From: Segatella maculosa DSM 19339 = JCM 15638
GTDB taxonomy: Bacteria; Bacteroidota; Bacteroidia; Bacteroidales; Bacteroidaceae
Direction of reading: 5' to 3'
DNA: 64,000 nt
Assembly (NCBI RefSeq): GCF_000382385.1
Contig: NZ_KB908321.1
Coordinates: 216,278-280,277 of the forward strand
The first letter of the stretch is position 1. The number at the start of each line of letters is the position of its first letter. The position numbers and the translations under genes are program-made. Positions 9,303 to 56,860 of this stretch are shown here, one piece after another. The notes below the pieces were generated by a model. That model worked only from the letters and a program-made list of their open reading frames with translations, was not told the origin of the DNA and did no database searches.

Positions 9303-9310
9303 TTATAGTG

Positions 9311-11587
9311 ATGGATTTTGAATTAAACGAAGGACAGAGGGCCGCCGTCGAATATTGTGACGGCCCGCAGTTGGTTATTGCCGGCGCAGGATCGGGCAAG
9401 ACGCGCGTGCTGACCTACAAGATTGCTTATCTGATTGATGAAAAGCAATACGAACCATGGAGCATCTTGGCGTTGACCTTTACCAATAAGGCGGCAACCG
9501 AGATGCGCACACGCATTGCCAAGGTCGTGGGGCAGGACCGCACTCGCTATCTGTATATGGGAACCTTTCATAGCATTTTCTCTCGTATCCTGCGTGTCGA
9601 AGCAGAAAAAATCGGCTATACTTCCAAGTTTACGATTTATGATGAGGCCGACAGCCGTTCCCTATTGAAGAGTATCATCAAGGAGATGGGGCTGGACGAC
9701 AAGGTTTACAAGCCGGCCGGCGTGCATGCCAAAATCAGTATGGCCAAGAACCATCTGATTTTTCCGGAGATGTATGCCAACGACCATGAAGCCTTGCAGC
9801 GAGATGCAAGGAGCAGGCAGCCGGAAATCCACAAGATATATCAGGTCTATCAGCAGCGTTGCCAAAAAGCCAATGCCATGGATTTTGACGATTTGCTGGT
9901 GCTTACATGGCGATTGTTTAAGGAGAACGATGATATCCGAAAGAAATATGCCGAGCGTTTCAGGTATATCTTGGTCGATGAGTATCAGGACACGAACTAC
10001 GTGCAGCAATGCATCGTGCTCCAATTGACGATGGAACAACGGCATGTCTGTGTCGTTGGCGATGATGCCCAAAGCATCTATGGCTTCCGCGGGGCGAACA
10101 TTGATAACATTCTTGAGTTTCAAAAGATTTATCCAGAGAGCAGACTCTTCAAGCTGGAGCAGAACTACCGTTCGACGCAGCGCATTGTTCAGGCGGCCAA
10201 CAGTCTGATACGGCACAACGCGCGTCAGATACCCAAAGATGTCTTCAGCCACAACGACGAGGGAGACAAGCTGATTTACAAACCGGTGTACAGCGACAAG
10301 GAAGAAGCCGTCGTGGTTTGCCGGCAAATCAAGCATCTACGGCAAAAGGAGAATGGCGGATACAGCGACTTTGCCATATTATACCGCACCAATTCTCAGA
10401 GTCGGAGCTTTGAGGAAGAGATGCTCAGGCAGAACATTCCATATCGTATTTTCGGCGGAATGAGCTTCTATCAGCGCAAGGAAATCAAAGACATCTTGGC
10501 TTACTTCCGCATGGTGGCCAATCCCGACGACGAAGAGGCCGTCAAGCGCATCATCAACTATCCTGCACGGGGCATTGGCAACACCACCATAGCCAAAATA
10601 GCCGCATGCGCACAGCTGCAAGGCGTGAGTTTTTGGAGCGTCATCAATTCTCCCGTGAAATATGGGCTGGACGTGAATAACGGCGTCATCGGCAAGTTGC
10701 GTTCGTTCGCGGAGCTCATCTCGTCGTTCATCGGCAGAATGCCAACGACAGACGCCTATGAATTGGGCAAGGCCATCATCAAAGAAAGCAAAATCAGTGC
10801 AGACATTTTCACTTCTACAGACCCCGACGCACTGTCACGGCAAGAAAACATTGAAGAACTGCTGAGCAGTTTGCAGGCATTTGTCGAGGAAAGAAGAGAA
10901 ACGGGGCGAGATGAATTTACGGGCTTGCCGGATTTCCTGCAAGAAGTTTCCCTGCTCACCGACGTGGAGAGCGGCGACAGCAACGACGGCAACAAGGTCA
11001 GCCTGATGACCATTCATGCGGCAAAAGGTTTGGAATTCCCGACGGTCTTCATCGTCGGAATGGAAGAAAACATTTTCCCCAACGCCATGTGCTTGGACAA
11101 TCCGCGCGAGCTGGAAGAGGAACGCCGGCTCTTTTACGTTGCCATCACGCGTGCCGAAAGGCATTGCATCCTGACAAGTGCGAAGAACAGATGGCGCTTT
11201 GGAAAGCTGGAATTCGGAAATCCAAGTCGTTTCCTTTATGAAATCGACCCGCGCTTCATGCAAATGGATGGCGACAGCCCCGCGACAGAAAGGCCGTTCG
11301 TGCGTTCTGCATTCAAACTGGAAGAACAATCTCCCGCCATTCAAACCGCTCATTTGCGACCGATAAAGGTAAGGCAAATTTCTTCGCCCGTTAGCCCTGC
11401 GGCCCCCGTGACATCTGCTCCCGACGGACTTCGCGTGGGCAGCGTCATCGAGCATCAACGTTTCGGCATCGGAACCGTCGCCAATCTTGAGGGAACCGGC
11501 GAGAACATGAAAGCCACCGTGTCGTTCAAGAACACCGGTCAGAAGATATTGCTGCTGAAGTTTGCCCGATACACAATCATAGGGTAG
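9311..11587 (+). CDS. uvrD: UvrD/PcrA-type ATP-dependent DNA helicase
   Basis: A superfamily 1A helicase of 758 residues from the ATG at 9311 (a GTG sits just before it). Motifs in order: Walker A AGAGSGKTRVLTYK (residues 24-37), TFTNKAATEM, Walker B VDEYQDTN, GDDAQSIYGFRGA, ATP-site Arg in LEQNYRST, the C-terminal MTIHAAKGLEFPTVF and VAITRAE. The last 60 residues (GSVIEHQRFGIGTVANLEG) are the PcrA-type C-terminal Tudor-like domain, which binds RNA polymerase in known homologues. The expected role is mismatch and excision repair and removal of transcription blocks. It probably shares a transcript with mtgA. Confidence 0.95.
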   Translation: MDFELNEGQRAAVEYCDGPQLVIAGAGSGKTRVLTYKIAYLIDEKQYEPWSILALTFTNKAATEMRTRIAKVVGQDRTRYLYMGTFHSIFSRILRVEAEKIGYTSKFTIYDEADSRSLLKSIIKEMGLDDKVYKPAGVHAKISMAKNHLIFPEMYANDHEALQRDARSRQPEIHKIYQVYQQRCQKANAMDFDDLLVLTWRLFKENDDIRKKYAERFRYILVDEYQDTNYVQQCIVLQLTMEQRHVCVVGDDAQSIYGFRGANIDNILEFQKIYPESRLFKLEQNYRSTQRIVQAANSLIRHNARQIPKDVFSHNDEGDKLIYKPVYSDKEEAVVVCRQIKHLRQKENGGYSDFAILYRTNSQSRSFEEEMLRQNIPYRIFGGMSFYQRKEIKDILAYFRMVANPDDEEAVKRIINYPARGIGNTTIAKIAACAQLQGVSFWSVINSPVKYGLDVNNGVIGKLRSFAELISSFIGRMPTTDAYELGKAIIKESKISADIFTSTDPDALSRQENIEELLSSLQAFVEERRETGRDEFTGLPDFLQEVSLLTDVESGDSNDGNKVSLMTIHAAKGLEFPTVFIVGMEENIFPNAMCLDNPRELEEERRLFYVAITRAERHCILTSAKNRWRFGKLEFGNPSRFLYEIDPRFMQMDGDSPATERPFVRSAFKLEEQSPAIQTAHLRPIKVRQISSPVSPAAPVTSAPDGLRVGSVIEHQRFGIGTVANLEGTGENMKATVSFKNTGQKILLLKFARYTIIG

Positions 11588-11644
11588 GGCTTTCTTTTCC
11601 ATCCCTTTTCGCCTTGCGGTTTTTCCGCTTCTGCATGCTGAAAA

Positions 11645-11985
11645 ATTTTCTCCCGCATGCCGTGAAATTTCTTCCCGTATATAAATTTATTTTCTCCCGC
11701 AAAGAAATTTATTTTCATACGGGAGAAAATTTATTTCTTCCCGCAAGAAAATTTTCTTCCTCCCGCATGCTGAAAAACTTCCTACCGTATGCCATAAAAT
11801 TTTCATACGCATGAAACTCCATTTTCATCCGTATGAAACTACAGTTCCAACCGTATGAAACTTTATTTTCATCCGTATGAAAATATTTTTTCTCCCGCAT
11901 GCCGTGAAATTTTCTACCGCAAAGAAATTTATTTCCATACGGGAGAAAATTTATTTCTTCCCGCAAGGAAATTCAGGGCCGTGCG
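11645..11985. repeat. Tandem array, fifteen 22-nt units
   Basis: A CCG(C/T)A(T/A) or ACGGGA/ACGCAT word recurs at 11653, 11675, 11697, 11719, 11741, 11763, 11785, 11807, 11829, 11851, 11873, 11895, 11917, 11939 and 11961: fifteen units with no slip in the 22-nt spacing despite strong sequence drift. Many units pair with a neighbour in inverted form, for instance TTTTCATCCGTATGAAA. The array sits between two convergent genes. The remaining bases to the terminator at 12047 show nothing I recognise. Confidence 0.9.
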
Positions 11986-12042
11986 GAAGTCCGAAAATAG
12001 GGGAGCTTTAACCGTTTCAGATTGACTTGGTCGATTATAAAC

Positions 12043-12073
12043 AAAAAAAGTATGCCCGTGCAAGGCATACTTT
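12043..12073 (-). terminator. Terminator of the acidic-tailed unknown gene
   Basis: AAAGTATGCC (12047-12056) pairs with GGCATACTTT (12064-12073). On the minus strand a T run follows, so it ends transcription of the gene at 12099-12932. Confidence 0.8.
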
Positions 12074-12098
12074 ATAGTGTCATTTCAAACATGTAAAT

Positions 12099-12932
12099 TT
12101 AATATTCCTCTTCGTCGCCCATCTCCGAGGCCTCCAATTCGAGCGTCTCTGGGTCTTCATCATAGGTGGTGCGATAGCTTTCTTCTGTCAGTTTGTCCTC
12201 GTCGAAGGTGTCGTCGTCGTCATCTTCGTCGGGCTCATTGTAATGGTCCTCCACGACAACGTCTTCTTCCTCTTCTTCCTCCGTGCTGTCTTGGGGCGTC
12301 TCTTCCTTTTCAGGCACTTCTTTGGGTTCGAACTTCGCCTTCGGACTCTCTTCTGTCTTGGGCTTTTCTTTTGCAAAGATGGCCTCGACCCACGTTCCTT
12401 TGGCTATTTCGAGCACCTCGTAGCCGTCGTGCACTTTCTTCTCGTACATGCCGCCCGGCTTGTGAAGACGGTCTTTCGGCAGGGTGGTGGTGCTGATGTC
12501 GAAACCCCGCTCGATGATGTCTTGTACGCTTTGCGACAGACTCTCCCAGCCGCCGCCGAAGTTCCGCTCGATGACCTCAAGCAGTTTGGCCGCCGAAATG
12601 TGGCGTATGTTCTCGTAGGTGAGGTCGGTGACGCGCAGAATGGGCCGCTTCTTGATGGCCCATTTGACTTTTGCGTTGTCGTCTATCTTGACAAGCCCTA
12701 CTTTGAAGCCGCGTGCTTCATATTTGGAGACGACTTCGGGACGGTCGACTTTGATTTCCTCGATATCGAACGCGCTTCTGATAATGTCGGCATAATGGCG
12801 CACATTATCTTTCAAATCGGATTCCTTCTCGGCAGCCTCCCATATCCGAAAGACATCGTTTTCTTGAATGTCCCAGACATTGCTCTTGTTGAGCGTCTTC
12901 AGCGTTAATGCTTTTTGTTGTCTCATATCCAT
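12099..12932 (-). CDS. Conserved hypothetical protein with strongly acidic C-terminal tail
   Basis: A 277-residue protein of unknown function. Residues 1-185 look globular and soluble (DVFRIWEAAEKESD, YEARGFKVGLVKIDDNAK, RVTDLTYENIRHISAAKLLE). From about residue 190 the chain is low complexity and very rich in Glu and Asp, with long acidic runs, ending EMGDEEEY. Such tails are common in nucleic-acid or basic-protein binding partners and in DNA mimics, but nothing here proves that. It has its own full promoter (12947-12978), back to back with that of rarA, and its own terminator. A second Met two codons in (12926) is an equally good start. Confidence 0.75.
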   Translation of the reverse strand: MDMRQQKALTLKTLNKSNVWDIQENDVFRIWEAAEKESDLKDNVRHYADIIRSAFDIEEIKVDRPEVVSKYEARGFKVGLVKIDDNAKVKWAIKKRPILRVTDLTYENIRHISAAKLLEVIERNFGGGWESLSQSVQDIIERGFDISTTTLPKDRLHKPGGMYEKKVHDGYEVLEIAKGTWVEAIFAKEKPKTEESPKAKFEPKEVPEKEETPQDSTEEEEEEDVVVEDHYNEPDEDDDDDTFDEDKLTEESYRTTYDEDPETLELEASEMGDEEEY

Positions 12933-15936: not shown

Positions 15937-15942
15937 ACCGTA

Positions 15943-16085
15943 CTTCCTATTGGGAATACAATCGTCTTCCCATTGGGAATACAATCGTACCTCCATTGGA
16001 AGTACAATCGTACCTCCATTGGAAGTACAACCCGACCTCCATTGGGAGTGCAATCGTACTTCCACTGGAGGTACAATCACGATGC
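15943..16085. repeat. TCCATTGG array, 23-nt unit, copy 1 (six units)
   Basis: ATTGG or CTGG recurs at 15949, 15972, 15995, 16018, 16041 and 16064, each 23 nt apart. The unit core TCCATTGGA is a near-palindrome followed by AGTACAATCGTA-like sequence. The same family with ten units is found at 36333-36550. It lies upstream of the ilvD promoter, and open frames read through it have no support as genes. Confidence 0.9.
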
Positions 16086-18072: not shown

Positions 18073-18225
18073 CCCTGCTGCAGGGTGCAATCCTACCCAG
18101 CGGTGAAGTGCGACCGTACCCAGCTGCTGGGTATGACGCTACCCAGCAGCTGGGTGCAACCCGACCCAGCAGTAGGGTACACCGCTATCCAGCAGTTGGG
18201 TATGGCGGCACCCTGCGAATAGGTA
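18073..18225 (+). repeat. CCCAGC-GCTGGG array, 23-nt unit (seven units) between ilvD and ilvB
   Basis: CCCTGC, CCCAGC or TCCAGC recurs at 18073, 18096, 18119, 18142, 18165, 18188 and 18211, 23 nt apart. Several units are good dyads (CCCAGCAGCTGGG, CCCTGCTGCAGGG). If ilvD and ilvB share one transcript, the array is transcribed and would fold into a row of short hairpins, which could affect mRNA stability or relative expression. That effect is inference. I see no clear promoter in 18226-18278. Confidence 0.9.
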
Positions 18226-32540: not shown

Positions 32541-32672
32541 GACGGAAGTATGAGTCGTGGACTACGGAAGTATAAGTCGTGCCCCACGGAAGTATGAGTC
32601 GTAGTTGACGAAAGTATATATTGTGCCCCACAATAGTATATATTGTACCCCACGAAAGTATATATTGTCAAA
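32541..32672. repeat. Tandem array, six 22-nt units
   Basis: GGAAGTAT, GAAAGTAT or AATAGTAT recurs at 32544, 32566, 32588, 32610, 32632 and 32654, 22 nt apart. The units fall into two subtypes, AGTATGAGTCGT in the first three and AGTATATATTGT in the last three. It fills the gap between the 3' end of panB and the 5' end of the lipoprotein gene. Confidence 0.9.
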
Positions 32673-36220: not shown

Positions 36221-36325
36221 GATATAAGGAAGCCTTTCCACTTCCTATAAGGAATCCTCGACCTTTCCTTATAGGAATCCTCGACCTTTCCTTATATGAA
36301 TACTCGAGGCTTCCTTATATCAAGG
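36221..36325. repeat. TTCCTTATAGGAA array, 23-nt unit
   Basis: A CCTATAAGG or CCTTATA word recurs at 36244, 36267, 36290 and 36313, 23 nt apart, with a related unit before it (GATATAAGGAAG). The cores are dyads such as TTCCTTATAGGAA. It directly precedes the TCCATTGG array, so two different sequences with the same period sit side by side. Confidence 0.85.
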
Positions 36326-36332
36326 CAATGGT

Positions 36333-36550
36333 CTTCCTATTGGGAACACGATTGCCTTCCAAGTGAGAATACGATTGTCTTCCCAGTGGGAACACGATTG
36401 CCTTCCCAATGGGAATACGATTGTACTTCCATTGGGAGTACGATTGCACTTCCATTGGGAGTACGATTGCACCTCCATTGGGAGTACGATTGTACTTCCA
36501 TTGGAGGTATGATTGTACTTCCATTGGAGGTATGATTGTACCTCCATTGA
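36333..36550. repeat. TCCATTGG array, 23-nt unit, copy 2 (ten units)
   Basis: The core recurs at 36339, 36362, 36385, 36408, 36431, 36454, 36477, 36500, 36523 and 36546. It is the same family as 15943-16085. Because 23 is not a multiple of 3 and the unit has no stop codon, several frames on both strands stay open through it; these are not genes. The remaining bases up to the tRNA hold nothing I recognise. Confidence 0.92.
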
Positions 36551-40849: not shown

Positions 40850-41235
40850 CGGAAATTGGAATTTCTAATCAGGAAACGGTAATTTCTACTCGGAAACTCG
40901 AGTTTCTGGACAACCAACGACAATTTTTGTAAAGAATTCTTGGTTTCTAAGCAGAAAACGCTGTATTGTGTCAAGAATTTTGGAATTCTAAGCAAAAAAC
41001 AGAAAATTTTGTAAAGAATTCGCGAATTTTTTGCAGAAAATGGAAAATTTCGCTCAGAATTCCAAAATTCTTGACAAAAATTCTCATTTTCTGCTCAGAA
41101 TTCCAAAATTCTTGGCAAAATACAGCGATTTCTGCTCGGAATTCACAAATTCTTGATAAAAATCGGAAAATTCTGCTCAGAATTTGCAAATTTTTGATGC
41201 CTTACAGCGATTTTTGATGAAAAACATGCGTTTCT
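40850..41235. repeat. AT-rich tandem array, about ten 41-nt units
   Basis: AGAATTC- or GGAAATT-like words recur at 40850, 40891, 40932, 40973, 41014, 41055, 41096, 41137 and 41178, exactly 41 nt apart. Units have the dyad AGAATT-CCA-AAATTCT and a second half like TACAGCGATTTCTGCT. It directly follows the GC-rich array, as at the left edge of the window, and ends about 100 nt before the YycJ promoter. Confidence 0.9.
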
Positions 41236-44571: not shown

Positions 44572-44668
44572 TCAGCCATCTTGCTTTGCAATATCAGCCA
44601 TTTCGCCTCGTAATATCAGCTATATTGCGGCCTGATTTCAGCCATTTCACACGGCACAATGGCTGACC
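44572..44668. repeat. TCAGCCAT array, 22-nt unit, copy 3
   Basis: Units at 44572, 44594, 44616 and 44638 (TCAGCCAT/TCAGCTAT) and an inverted one at 44660 (TGGCTGAC), all 22 nt apart. It lies between the divergent tamL and ABC-F promoters. Bases 44437-44571 hold nothing I recognise. Confidence 0.9.
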
Positions 44669-44702
44669 TTCCCCTCTCATTTCAATTACATCCCATTCTC
44701 GC

Positions 44703-44757
44703 GTTCGTGAGACCCGGGTCTCGCGCTCATGAGACCCGGGTCTCACGCTCGTGACAT
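44703..44757. repeat. GAGACCCGGGTCTC array, 22-nt unit
   Basis: G(T/C)TC(G/A)TGA recurs at 44703, 44725 and 44747, 22 nt apart, enclosing two perfect 14-bp palindromes GAGACCCGGGTCTC. It follows the TCAGCCAT array by about 35 nt. Confidence 0.88.
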
Positions 44758-49756: not shown

Positions 49757-50145
49757 GGCGTCGGACAACAGTTCCTTTTTATATTTTTTATCGTCCGAGC
49801 CCTCGGAAAACAGTTTAAGCTTTCTTTTTCTTCCATCCGAGGCCTCGGATAGCGTTTTCTGTTAATTAATTTTACATCCGAGGTCTCGGATAGTGTTTTC
49901 CGTTAATTAATTTCGCATCTGGGGCCTCAGATAACGCTTTCTGTTAATTAATTTCACATCCGAGACCTCGGATAGCATTTTCCGTTAATTAATTTCACAT
50001 CTGAGGCCTCGGATAACAGTTCTTTTTCTATTTAGCTCCCATCTGAGCCGTCGGACAAGCGTTCCTTTTTTGTTTTACTATCTTCCGAGCCGTTGGACGA
50101 GTGTTCCTTTTTTGCTTTCCGTTAATCCGATGCTTCAGAGACGCA
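49757..50145. repeat. CCGAGGCCTCGG / TTAATTAA tandem array, 41-nt unit
   Basis: CATCCGAGG or CATCTGGGG recurs at 49834, 49875, 49916, 49957 and 49998, exactly 41 nt apart, with looser units at 42-nt steps on both sides (49792, 50040 and beyond), about nine units in all. The central units pair a 12-bp palindrome CCGAGGCCTCGG with GTTAATTAATTT. It fills the gap between folC and galM. Bases 50146-50280 hold nothing I recognise, and the galM promoter region (TTTACTTTG near 50300) follows. Confidence 0.92.
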
Positions 50146-56624: not shown

Positions 56625-56712
56625 TTCCCACTAAGTTGGGAAATTCTTCCCTCTAAGTTGGGAAATATTTCCCACTAAGTTGAAAAATATTTCCCACTAA
56701 GTTGGGAATTCG
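56625..56712 (+). repeat. CTAAGTTGGGAAA array, 22-nt unit (four units)
   Basis: CTAAGTTG recurs at 56631, 56653, 56675 and 56697, exactly 22 nt apart. The junctions form the palindrome TGGGAAATATTTCCCA. It lies in the likely leader of the HU-like gene. Confidence 0.9.
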
Positions 56713-56746
56713 CCTTTCCTATAAGGAGTCGGGTAGGAGTCCTATC

Positions 56747-56860
56747 GTGCAGGGTGTCGCATCCTAACGTTCAGGGCTTTGTCAACCTAATGTGCAGGCC
56801 ATTGCCATCCCAATGTGCATTGGCATTGCATGCCAATGTGCAGGGCGTCTCCATCGATAA
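56747..56860 (+). repeat. GTGCAGG array, 22-23-nt unit (five units)
   Basis: GTGCAGG, GTTCAGG or GTGCATT recurs at 56747, 56769, 56792, 56815 and 56838 (steps 22, 23, 23, 23). One unit forms ATTGGCAT-TGC-ATGCCAAT. It lies in the likely leader of the HU-like gene, 35 nt after the previous array and unrelated to it in sequence. Confidence 0.88.

Follow-up and report, generated by a model that had tools for sequence, protein, structure and literature searches.

Recurrent spacing and dyad symmetry in a drifting 22-nt array of Segatella maculosa and in other intergenic arrays

Between two convergent genes of Segatella maculosa lies an array of short tandem units that differ from one another at many letters and follow each other at a single distance. 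How can the sequence drift so far while the spacing stays? Two possible scenarios may be considered. The spacing may be kept because something reads the units at fixed distances along the DNA. Alternatively, repeats that gain and lose whole units may stay in frame without having any function. To weigh these scenarios, we analysed the array in the window (the whole stretch of 64,000 nucleotides that was examined), its family in the S. maculosa genome (3.31 Mb, 60 contigs), and arrays of similar period in related genomes.

An array of 22-nt units between convergent genes

The array and its surroundings contain the following features.

9308..11587, + strand: PcrA/UvrD-type DNA helicase gene, with the array on its 3' side (Pfam UvrD-helicase, 2e-87)
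11631..11982 (approximate), no strand: array of 16 near-palindromic units with exact 22-nt steps
11653..11762, no strand: five-unit block, whose variant words come back at 11895-11982 with one unit fewer (by eye, from the unit list)
11895..11982, no strand: the block again, now with four units; the final one fades into unique DNA past about 11974
12047..12073, - strand: intrinsic-terminator-like hairpin, 3' of the convergent gene and outside the array (1 found against 0.6 expected from shuffles)
12099..12932, - strand: hypothetical protein gene, convergent to pcrA, with no match in Pfam or NCBIfam

The consensus unit is approximately CCG(T/C)A(T/A)GAAAATTTATTTTCTC, and the G+C content of the array is 0.37 versus 0.49 for the window. 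From 11653 to 11961, a core word (CCG, ACG or the like) is met at each 22nd base. The preliminary description had counted fifteen units in phase over this interval; the phase holds, and the count rises to 16 with a further unit at 11631, ahead of the original start. Identity at lag 22 is 0.64 versus 0.27 (z 13.4, 1000 first-order Markov shuffles), and self-identity is also raised at lags 44, 66, 88, 110, and 132. When a unit profile was scored at all positions without a spacing penalty, 15 of 15 steps were 22, the profile itself being derived from units located with such a penalty. There is no frame-shifting indel in the array: Tandem Repeats Finder reports 7-8% indels in two of its rows over it, where the unit profile finds none. 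Heavy drift without slip, as first described, is thus what the array displays. Change by whole units does occur within it, as the blocks at 11653-11762 and 11895-11982 illustrate.

Some units had also been described as inverted relative to their neighbours. This is better explained by near-palindromic units, since 19 of the top 20 palindrome centres fall on a single phase modulo 11 bp. The units look inverted because each nearly equals its own reverse complement, so no cut-and-invert event is required. The dyad axes, spaced 11 bp apart, alternate between the CG core and the AT-rich middle of the unit, and the dyad score of the array against column permutations gives P 0.003 for arms 1-10 and P 0.079 for arms 3-8. 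Covariation in the 22-nt family is weak: z exceeds 3 in two of seven pairs across the CG axis and in one of nine pairs within the unit, and single pairs of the two sets reach -4.0 and -7.0, respectively. For the inner pair next to CG, z is -3.5.

Gene calls in this analysis are simple longest-ORF calls. The helicase gene matches the NCBIfam pcrA model at 6.2e-241 and 801.7 bits, under the curated cut-off of 911.2, and nine of its 12 relatives in named genomes are from Prevotellaceae, the remaining three being distant. We met no iteron-type replication initiator among the three neighbours examined, namely the PcrA/UvrD helicase, the orphan without a match, and an AAA ATPase. For this last protein, the best 25 of 76 NCBIfam matches all fall under their cut-offs, with AAA-family ATPase and RarA-type models at the top.

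Several familiar classes of sequence were rejected for this array. Protein coding does not fit a unit of 22, which is not divisible by 3, and the two ORFs over the array have no Pfam match. A promoter array is not indicated by the single promoter-like site in 11560-12120, which lies outside the array and compares with 1.2 expected. The units abut with no unique spacers between them, unlike CRISPR, and at gathering scores Rfam gives only a tRNA elsewhere in the window, which leaves no known structured RNA. Carriage by known plasmids or phages was rejected, with no match in either; viral contigs, searched for one exact 20-nt word from the array, do not contain it.

Spacing and substitution in the 22-nt family

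The array belongs to a family that we grouped from 35 matches into 14 loci of the S. maculosa genome. A profile with a mild spacing penalty located 143 units, and all of the 129 steps between them were 22. Some edge units score low, and the membership of one locus (L042), which has two weak units, is doubtful; hence, the search was rerun without the penalty at a threshold of 10 bits. Steps were then obtained at 13 of the 14 loci: 115 of the 117 were 22 and two were 44, none of them out of frame. Each step of 44 spans a weak unit. The 90 distinct units above 10 bits differ at a mean of 8.8 of 22 places, and a minimum spanning tree linking them takes no fewer than 208 substitutions, although blocks of units have been copied between loci, so these substitutions are partly non-independent. 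Within the family, unit length is fixed, whole units are gained and lost, blocks are common to several loci, and the frame does not slip.

The control came from intergenic DNA of S. maculosa that is neither array nor periodic: 31 sequences that resemble one another, compared in 93 best alignments, among which decayed arrays and other dispersed elements may persist. The alignments gave 204 gap openings per 1792 mismatches, about 0.114, or 0.095 before periodic sequences were dropped. At the control ratios approximately 20-24 slips would be expected, against 0 frame shifts in 117 steps. BLAST within the family does show gaps, 99 per 1654 mismatches over the 78 best pairs. Among the 32 gapped pairs, 23 have equal length on both sides, three differ by 22, four by 1, and two by 4; the differences of 1 adjoin alignment ends, and both differences of 4 lie at the fading end of one locus (L040). 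Given these lengths and the unit profile, in which no net shift appears, the gaps can in our judgement be set aside; the claim is accordingly one of no net frame shift, not of an absence of indels. An earlier count over all HSPs had put the gap-to-mismatch ratio at 0.106 in non-array DNA; its values of 0.038 for all arrays and 0.049 for the family were both raised by out-of-register alignments.

The preliminary description had proposed that spacing is kept beyond the neutral expectation. The comparison bears this out: no step in 117 is out of frame against at least 208 substitutions, while the control carries its 204 gaps. It does not prove selection, because adding, losing or copying whole units preserves the frame by itself.

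Outside S. maculosa the sequence is scarce. The array was matched in only two of 99 other genomes of the genus, with at most six candidates scored in each. In one of these, a second species (G076), the family at two loci (L021 and L024) has steps of 22 or multiples; the match in the other (G026) was too weak for scoring. The nearest relative among 398 genomes, one per species, has a pcrA gene 75% identical, and the 600 bases 3' of that gene yielded no array. The orthologous site does not keep the array more generally, since only eight rows (six genomes) carry any array of such periods among 38 stretches downstream of pcrA, which represent apparently 36 genomes, two of them fetched twice. Just 3' of pcrA, 42-nt arrays of unrelated sequence occur in Prevotella sp. 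HJM029 (L009/L050) and Prevotella oulorum (L013/L051), with 8.8 and at least 2.7 copies.

At five loci (L035, L037, L043, L044, and L047), a CCCG-type array is flanked by a second 22-nt family (TCAGCC...GGCTGA). Judged by eye, the two families have a common frame in four of these loci and are 2 bp off in L035.

Period classes and dyad symmetry across arrays

In 464 kb of the S. maculosa genome, Tandem Repeats Finder identified 84 arrays of period 10-100 in non-coding DNA. Fifty have a period of 21-23, eight of 41-42, 16 of 44-46, and six of 69-92, with four others, so that classes 21-23 and 41-46 and their multiples hold 80 of the 84. A count of repeated 8-mers, which is independent of that program, peaks at 23, 41, 22, 46, 82, and 44. 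The arrays fall into 41 groups unrelated in sequence (BLAST, E 1e-4), an upper figure given that short arrays may go unlinked. By period, 23 groups are of 21-23, 13 of 41-46, three of 82-83, and two of other lengths; the common classes therefore cover 39 of the 41 groups, and 21-23 with 41-46 alone cover 36. Arrays make up 11% of non-coding DNA in a 400-kb sample of the genome and 25% in the window. Not all of them are as exact as the 22-nt family: 19 of the 50 arrays of period 21-23 have non-zero indels according to Tandem Repeats Finder, and a 41/42-nt family mixes both steps, with indels up to 9%. In the window, the array after the 41-nt one at 49834-50015 has a period of 42.

The window has more arrays in these classes, unrelated in sequence and with periods of 21-23, 41-42 or 44. 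They lie at 2796-2955, 15939-16078, 18117-18202, 32542-32668, 36242-36549, 40850-41197, 44572-44754, 49834-50130, and 56625-56846. By the longest-ORF calls, all nine except 15939-16078 are in non-coding DNA.

Ten related genomes, nine from the genus and one from the family, contain 91 arrays: 41 of period 21-23, 17 of 40-46, 10 of 66-88 (multiples or near), and 23 others. The period rule is thus looser in these ten related genomes, where 68 of 91 arrays fit. Outside the family, 360 kb yielded 11 arrays, four of period 21-22 and none of 41-46. Different genomes rarely have an array sequence in common (eight links) while the periods recur, which indicates that sequence turns over and period mostly stays. 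In samples from several members of the genus (G122, G045, G016, G117, G345, and G350), non-coding DNA also holds arrays with periods of 14-18 and, in some, of 24-25 or 31-32, which sets them apart from the S. maculosa genome.

Dyad symmetry was scored in 85 arrays of period 22/23. In 41 of them the arms are significant (P<=0.05 against column permutations), when about four would be expected, and in the other 44 a significant dyad is absent. Dyads are clearer with the actual units than with consensus units, of which 20 in 77 S. maculosa arrays are palindromic as whole units at P<0.05; local stems occur in the consensus units of 17 of 50 arrays of period 21-23 and 13 of 24 of period 41-46. Whether the axis centre looks like a loop or gap or like a full dyad flips with the arms used for picking the axis. 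Namely, axes chosen on arms 5-8 (32 of 85 arrays) leave the centre near chance, at 0.22-0.46, and axes chosen on arms 1-4 (33 of 85) leave the outer arms weaker, at 0.39-0.83.

Unlike arrays that adjoin each other mostly share one dyad lattice. At 14 junctions, with block boundaries set by eye in seven of the 11 regions displayed, 12 agree in dyad phase modulo half a period: eight exactly, and four with an offset of half a period, which is the same lattice. Two break the lattice. Four displayed regions were left unscored, one of which has a step change. In one locus (L096:17533-18061), 23 consecutive 23-nt rows pass through five palindromes in register; of its junctions, the first scored half a base off and the other three agree. 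A 41-nt family (L179-L186 and L085, from G076 and one locus of S. maculosa) has a nearly constant 20-nt spacer and a palindrome specific to each locus. Both arms differ together (TCA/TGA, AAC/GTT, CCN/GGG). Their Watson-Crick fraction, in a count that takes in three spurious units, is 0.85. Shuffling of the 3' letters lowers it to 0.60 (sd 0.025), and sliding by 1-3 to 0.31 or less. Within these arrays 29 of 30 steps are 41 and one is 40.

In raw counts, arrays are rarer in gaps between divergent genes than in the other gaps. They occupy 5 of 27 divergent, 11 of 24 convergent, and 30 of 74 co-directional gaps in S. maculosa, and 8 of 54, 13 of 49, and 26 of 133 in other genomes, where the divergent and co-directional gaps differ little.

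Possible readings of the arrays

How do these arrays compare with known systems? The REP/BIME elements of enterobacteria are likewise palindromic intergenic units in arrays, mostly 3' of genes. They have one or few conserved sequences and are tied to a Y1 (RAYT) transposase, whereas S. maculosa has many unrelated sequences at few spacings. Dispersal by REP/RAYT was rejected for S. maculosa: Y1_Tnp (PF01797) has 0 matches in its genome, and the same search was positive in five of 14 control genomes. The iterons of plasmid origins are direct repeats about two helical turns apart, as here, and are bound by protein. Iterons adjoin a rep gene and have one common sequence, unlike the present arrays, which are dispersed over the genome and have many.

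Repeats described in the same phylum come closer. BrickBuilt of Porphyromonas gingivalis is an intergenic tandem 23-nt repeat without spacers, present in 19 dispersed imperfect copies in ATCC 33277 (PMC4596501). Part of the copies have a leader, a tail, and terminal inverted repeats, and indels within an element range from 0 to 6%; that paper treats BrickBuilt and PgRS as transposable elements and reports BrickBuilt, by nucleotide search, solely from Porphyromonas (PMC4596501). The present arrays resemble it in their short 22-23 nt tandem unit, intergenic position, and dispersed copies, and differ from it as described there in having no common ends (the 25 bases next to each match lay outside the search) and, in the family, no net frame shift. 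Tandem repeats of 22, 23, and 41 nt are also on record for P. gingivalis W83, at places not given exactly, and MITE464/PgRS carries a 41-nt repeat, with 23- and 41-nt units not homologous (both as cited in PMC4596501). These fall into the same period classes, although the part of the source consulted describes them only as repeats and mentions no dyad lattices. PINSR of Prevotella intermedia (PMC4755523), a repeat of the same genus, has in common with the arrays that it is intergenic, highly amplified, and without terminal inverted repeats. It is a single dispersed unit of 188 bp rather than a short-period array. A literature search, with most subscription journals beyond its reach, found no account of such arrays in Prevotella.

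The reading that we tentatively favour, while giving it less than an even chance, is that intergenic DNA of this genus has many lattices of dyad-symmetric sites, probably read by a putative protein, and that the array is one of them. The constraint would act on double-stranded DNA, because symmetric half-sites would be read along one helix face. One helical turn, about 11 bp, would separate half-sites, and about two turns, 20.5-23 bp, would separate dyads. The likeliest candidate for a reader would be a dimeric, cooperatively binding protein, architectural or nucleoid-associated, that tolerates much change of sequence and none of phase. A unit that acquired a frame-shifting indel would then disrupt the lattice and disappear; substitutions, single or matched between the two arms, would be tolerated. 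What the data show is the kept frame, a dyad in about half of the arrays, and a lattice that mostly continues across junctions; protein, selection, and function are what we infer. Against this reading stand the arrays that lack a significant dyad, the weak covariation in the 22-nt family, the two broken junctions, the less exact arrays, the scarcity of arrays at the orthologous site, and the 23 arrays of other period in related genomes. Further, no single helical pitch fits 22, 23, and 41 exactly, and no binding protein was found. A broader version of the lattice reading appears rather doubtful to us. It would extend a "spacing code" across the Prevotella genus, with hundreds of lattices per genome (an extrapolation from 84 arrays in 464 kb) and nearly any palindrome admitted if dyads repeat every 22, 23 or 20.5 bp. 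One architectural protein would read these lattices, or one ruler enzyme would make them; palindromes would be swapped as matched arm pairs with the lattice kept, so that spacing, not sequence, would be conserved.

Quasipalindrome correction is a process in which template switching corrects the arms of a palindrome against each other. The nearest rival to the lattice reading, and a close one, is frame-preserving neutral turnover, which we regard as possible though not probable. Here the arrays would be functionless old minisatellites in which slippage or recombination of whole units, together with template-switch correction of the arms, keeps both frame and dyad, and the periods would be inherited from a few ancestral arrays diverged beyond recognition. 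Whole-unit differences fit this account, both between the two blocks of the present array and in the 3 of 32 gapped pairs that differ by 22. Paired arm changes that are homogeneous within an array are an outcome to be expected from arm-to-arm correction and unit spreading; at L084 and at L096, neighbouring families with a common frame and common spacer words look like one array diverging in place; and position is not conserved. Yet ordinary small indels would be expected under neutrality, and 117 steps show no net frame shift; with 36 of 41 unrelated groups in classes 21-23 and 41-46, inheritance would have had to preserve the same few periods while the sequence turned over completely; and the scarcity in divergent gaps is not predicted. 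Hairpins in the 3' UTR of RNA that protect or terminate transcripts are an improbable alternative, although folding of the array as single-stranded DNA is much stronger than that of shuffled sequences (z -8.0), and 41 of the 46 array-bearing gaps of S. maculosa are convergent or co-directional, i.e., follow the 3' end of a gene. On the sense strand of 19 co-directional arrays, mismatched arm pairs comprise 14 G-T against 17 A-C; this lack of G-T excess (G-U in RNA) leaves nothing pointing to RNA. Moreover, the terminator-like hairpin that belongs to the convergent gene lies outside the array, hairpin function needs no 22-nt spacing, and no Rfam family reaches its gathering score.

Two further explanations concern how arrays are spread or seeded. 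It seems quite unlikely that the array is the inner minisatellite of a BrickBuilt-like non-autonomous transposable element (MITE), even though copies are dispersed at 14 loci, several of them adjoined by a second common repeat family, and BrickBuilt of P. gingivalis has its 23-nt repeat inside IS5-type ends (PMC4596501). No leader, tail or terminal inverted repeat is common to the loci: only 18 of 378 pairs among 28 flanks of the 14 loci share any similarity, partly via the neighbouring repeat family, in flanks of about 300 bases that start 25 bases outside the matches, so that ends inside those 25 bases would be missed. A search confined to the Y1 (RAYT) type found no transposase match in the genome, and plasmids and phages gave none for the array. 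Least likely of all, and very improbable, is an enzyme with a fixed ruler that duplicates about two helical turns of any sequence, by staggered nicks about 22 bp apart and fill-in, and so seeds arrays of constant period. The period is independent of sequence, as such an enzyme would have it, even in most arrays of roughly two copies (exceptions 28 and 30). However, period 41 would require a second setting and the dyads would be left unexplained. No such enzyme was found in this analysis, and we know of none of this kind.

Bacterial intergenic repeats are usually classed by sequence; in these arrays sequence turns over, and the spacing stays together with, in about half of them, the dyad. If no protein reads the lattices, they would be a clean natural case of frame-preserving repeat evolution. 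If a protein does, a group of common human-associated bacteria would prove to have a chromosome-organising element of a new type, and an explanation would be at hand for the 22-, 23-, and 41-nt repeats of P. gingivalis.
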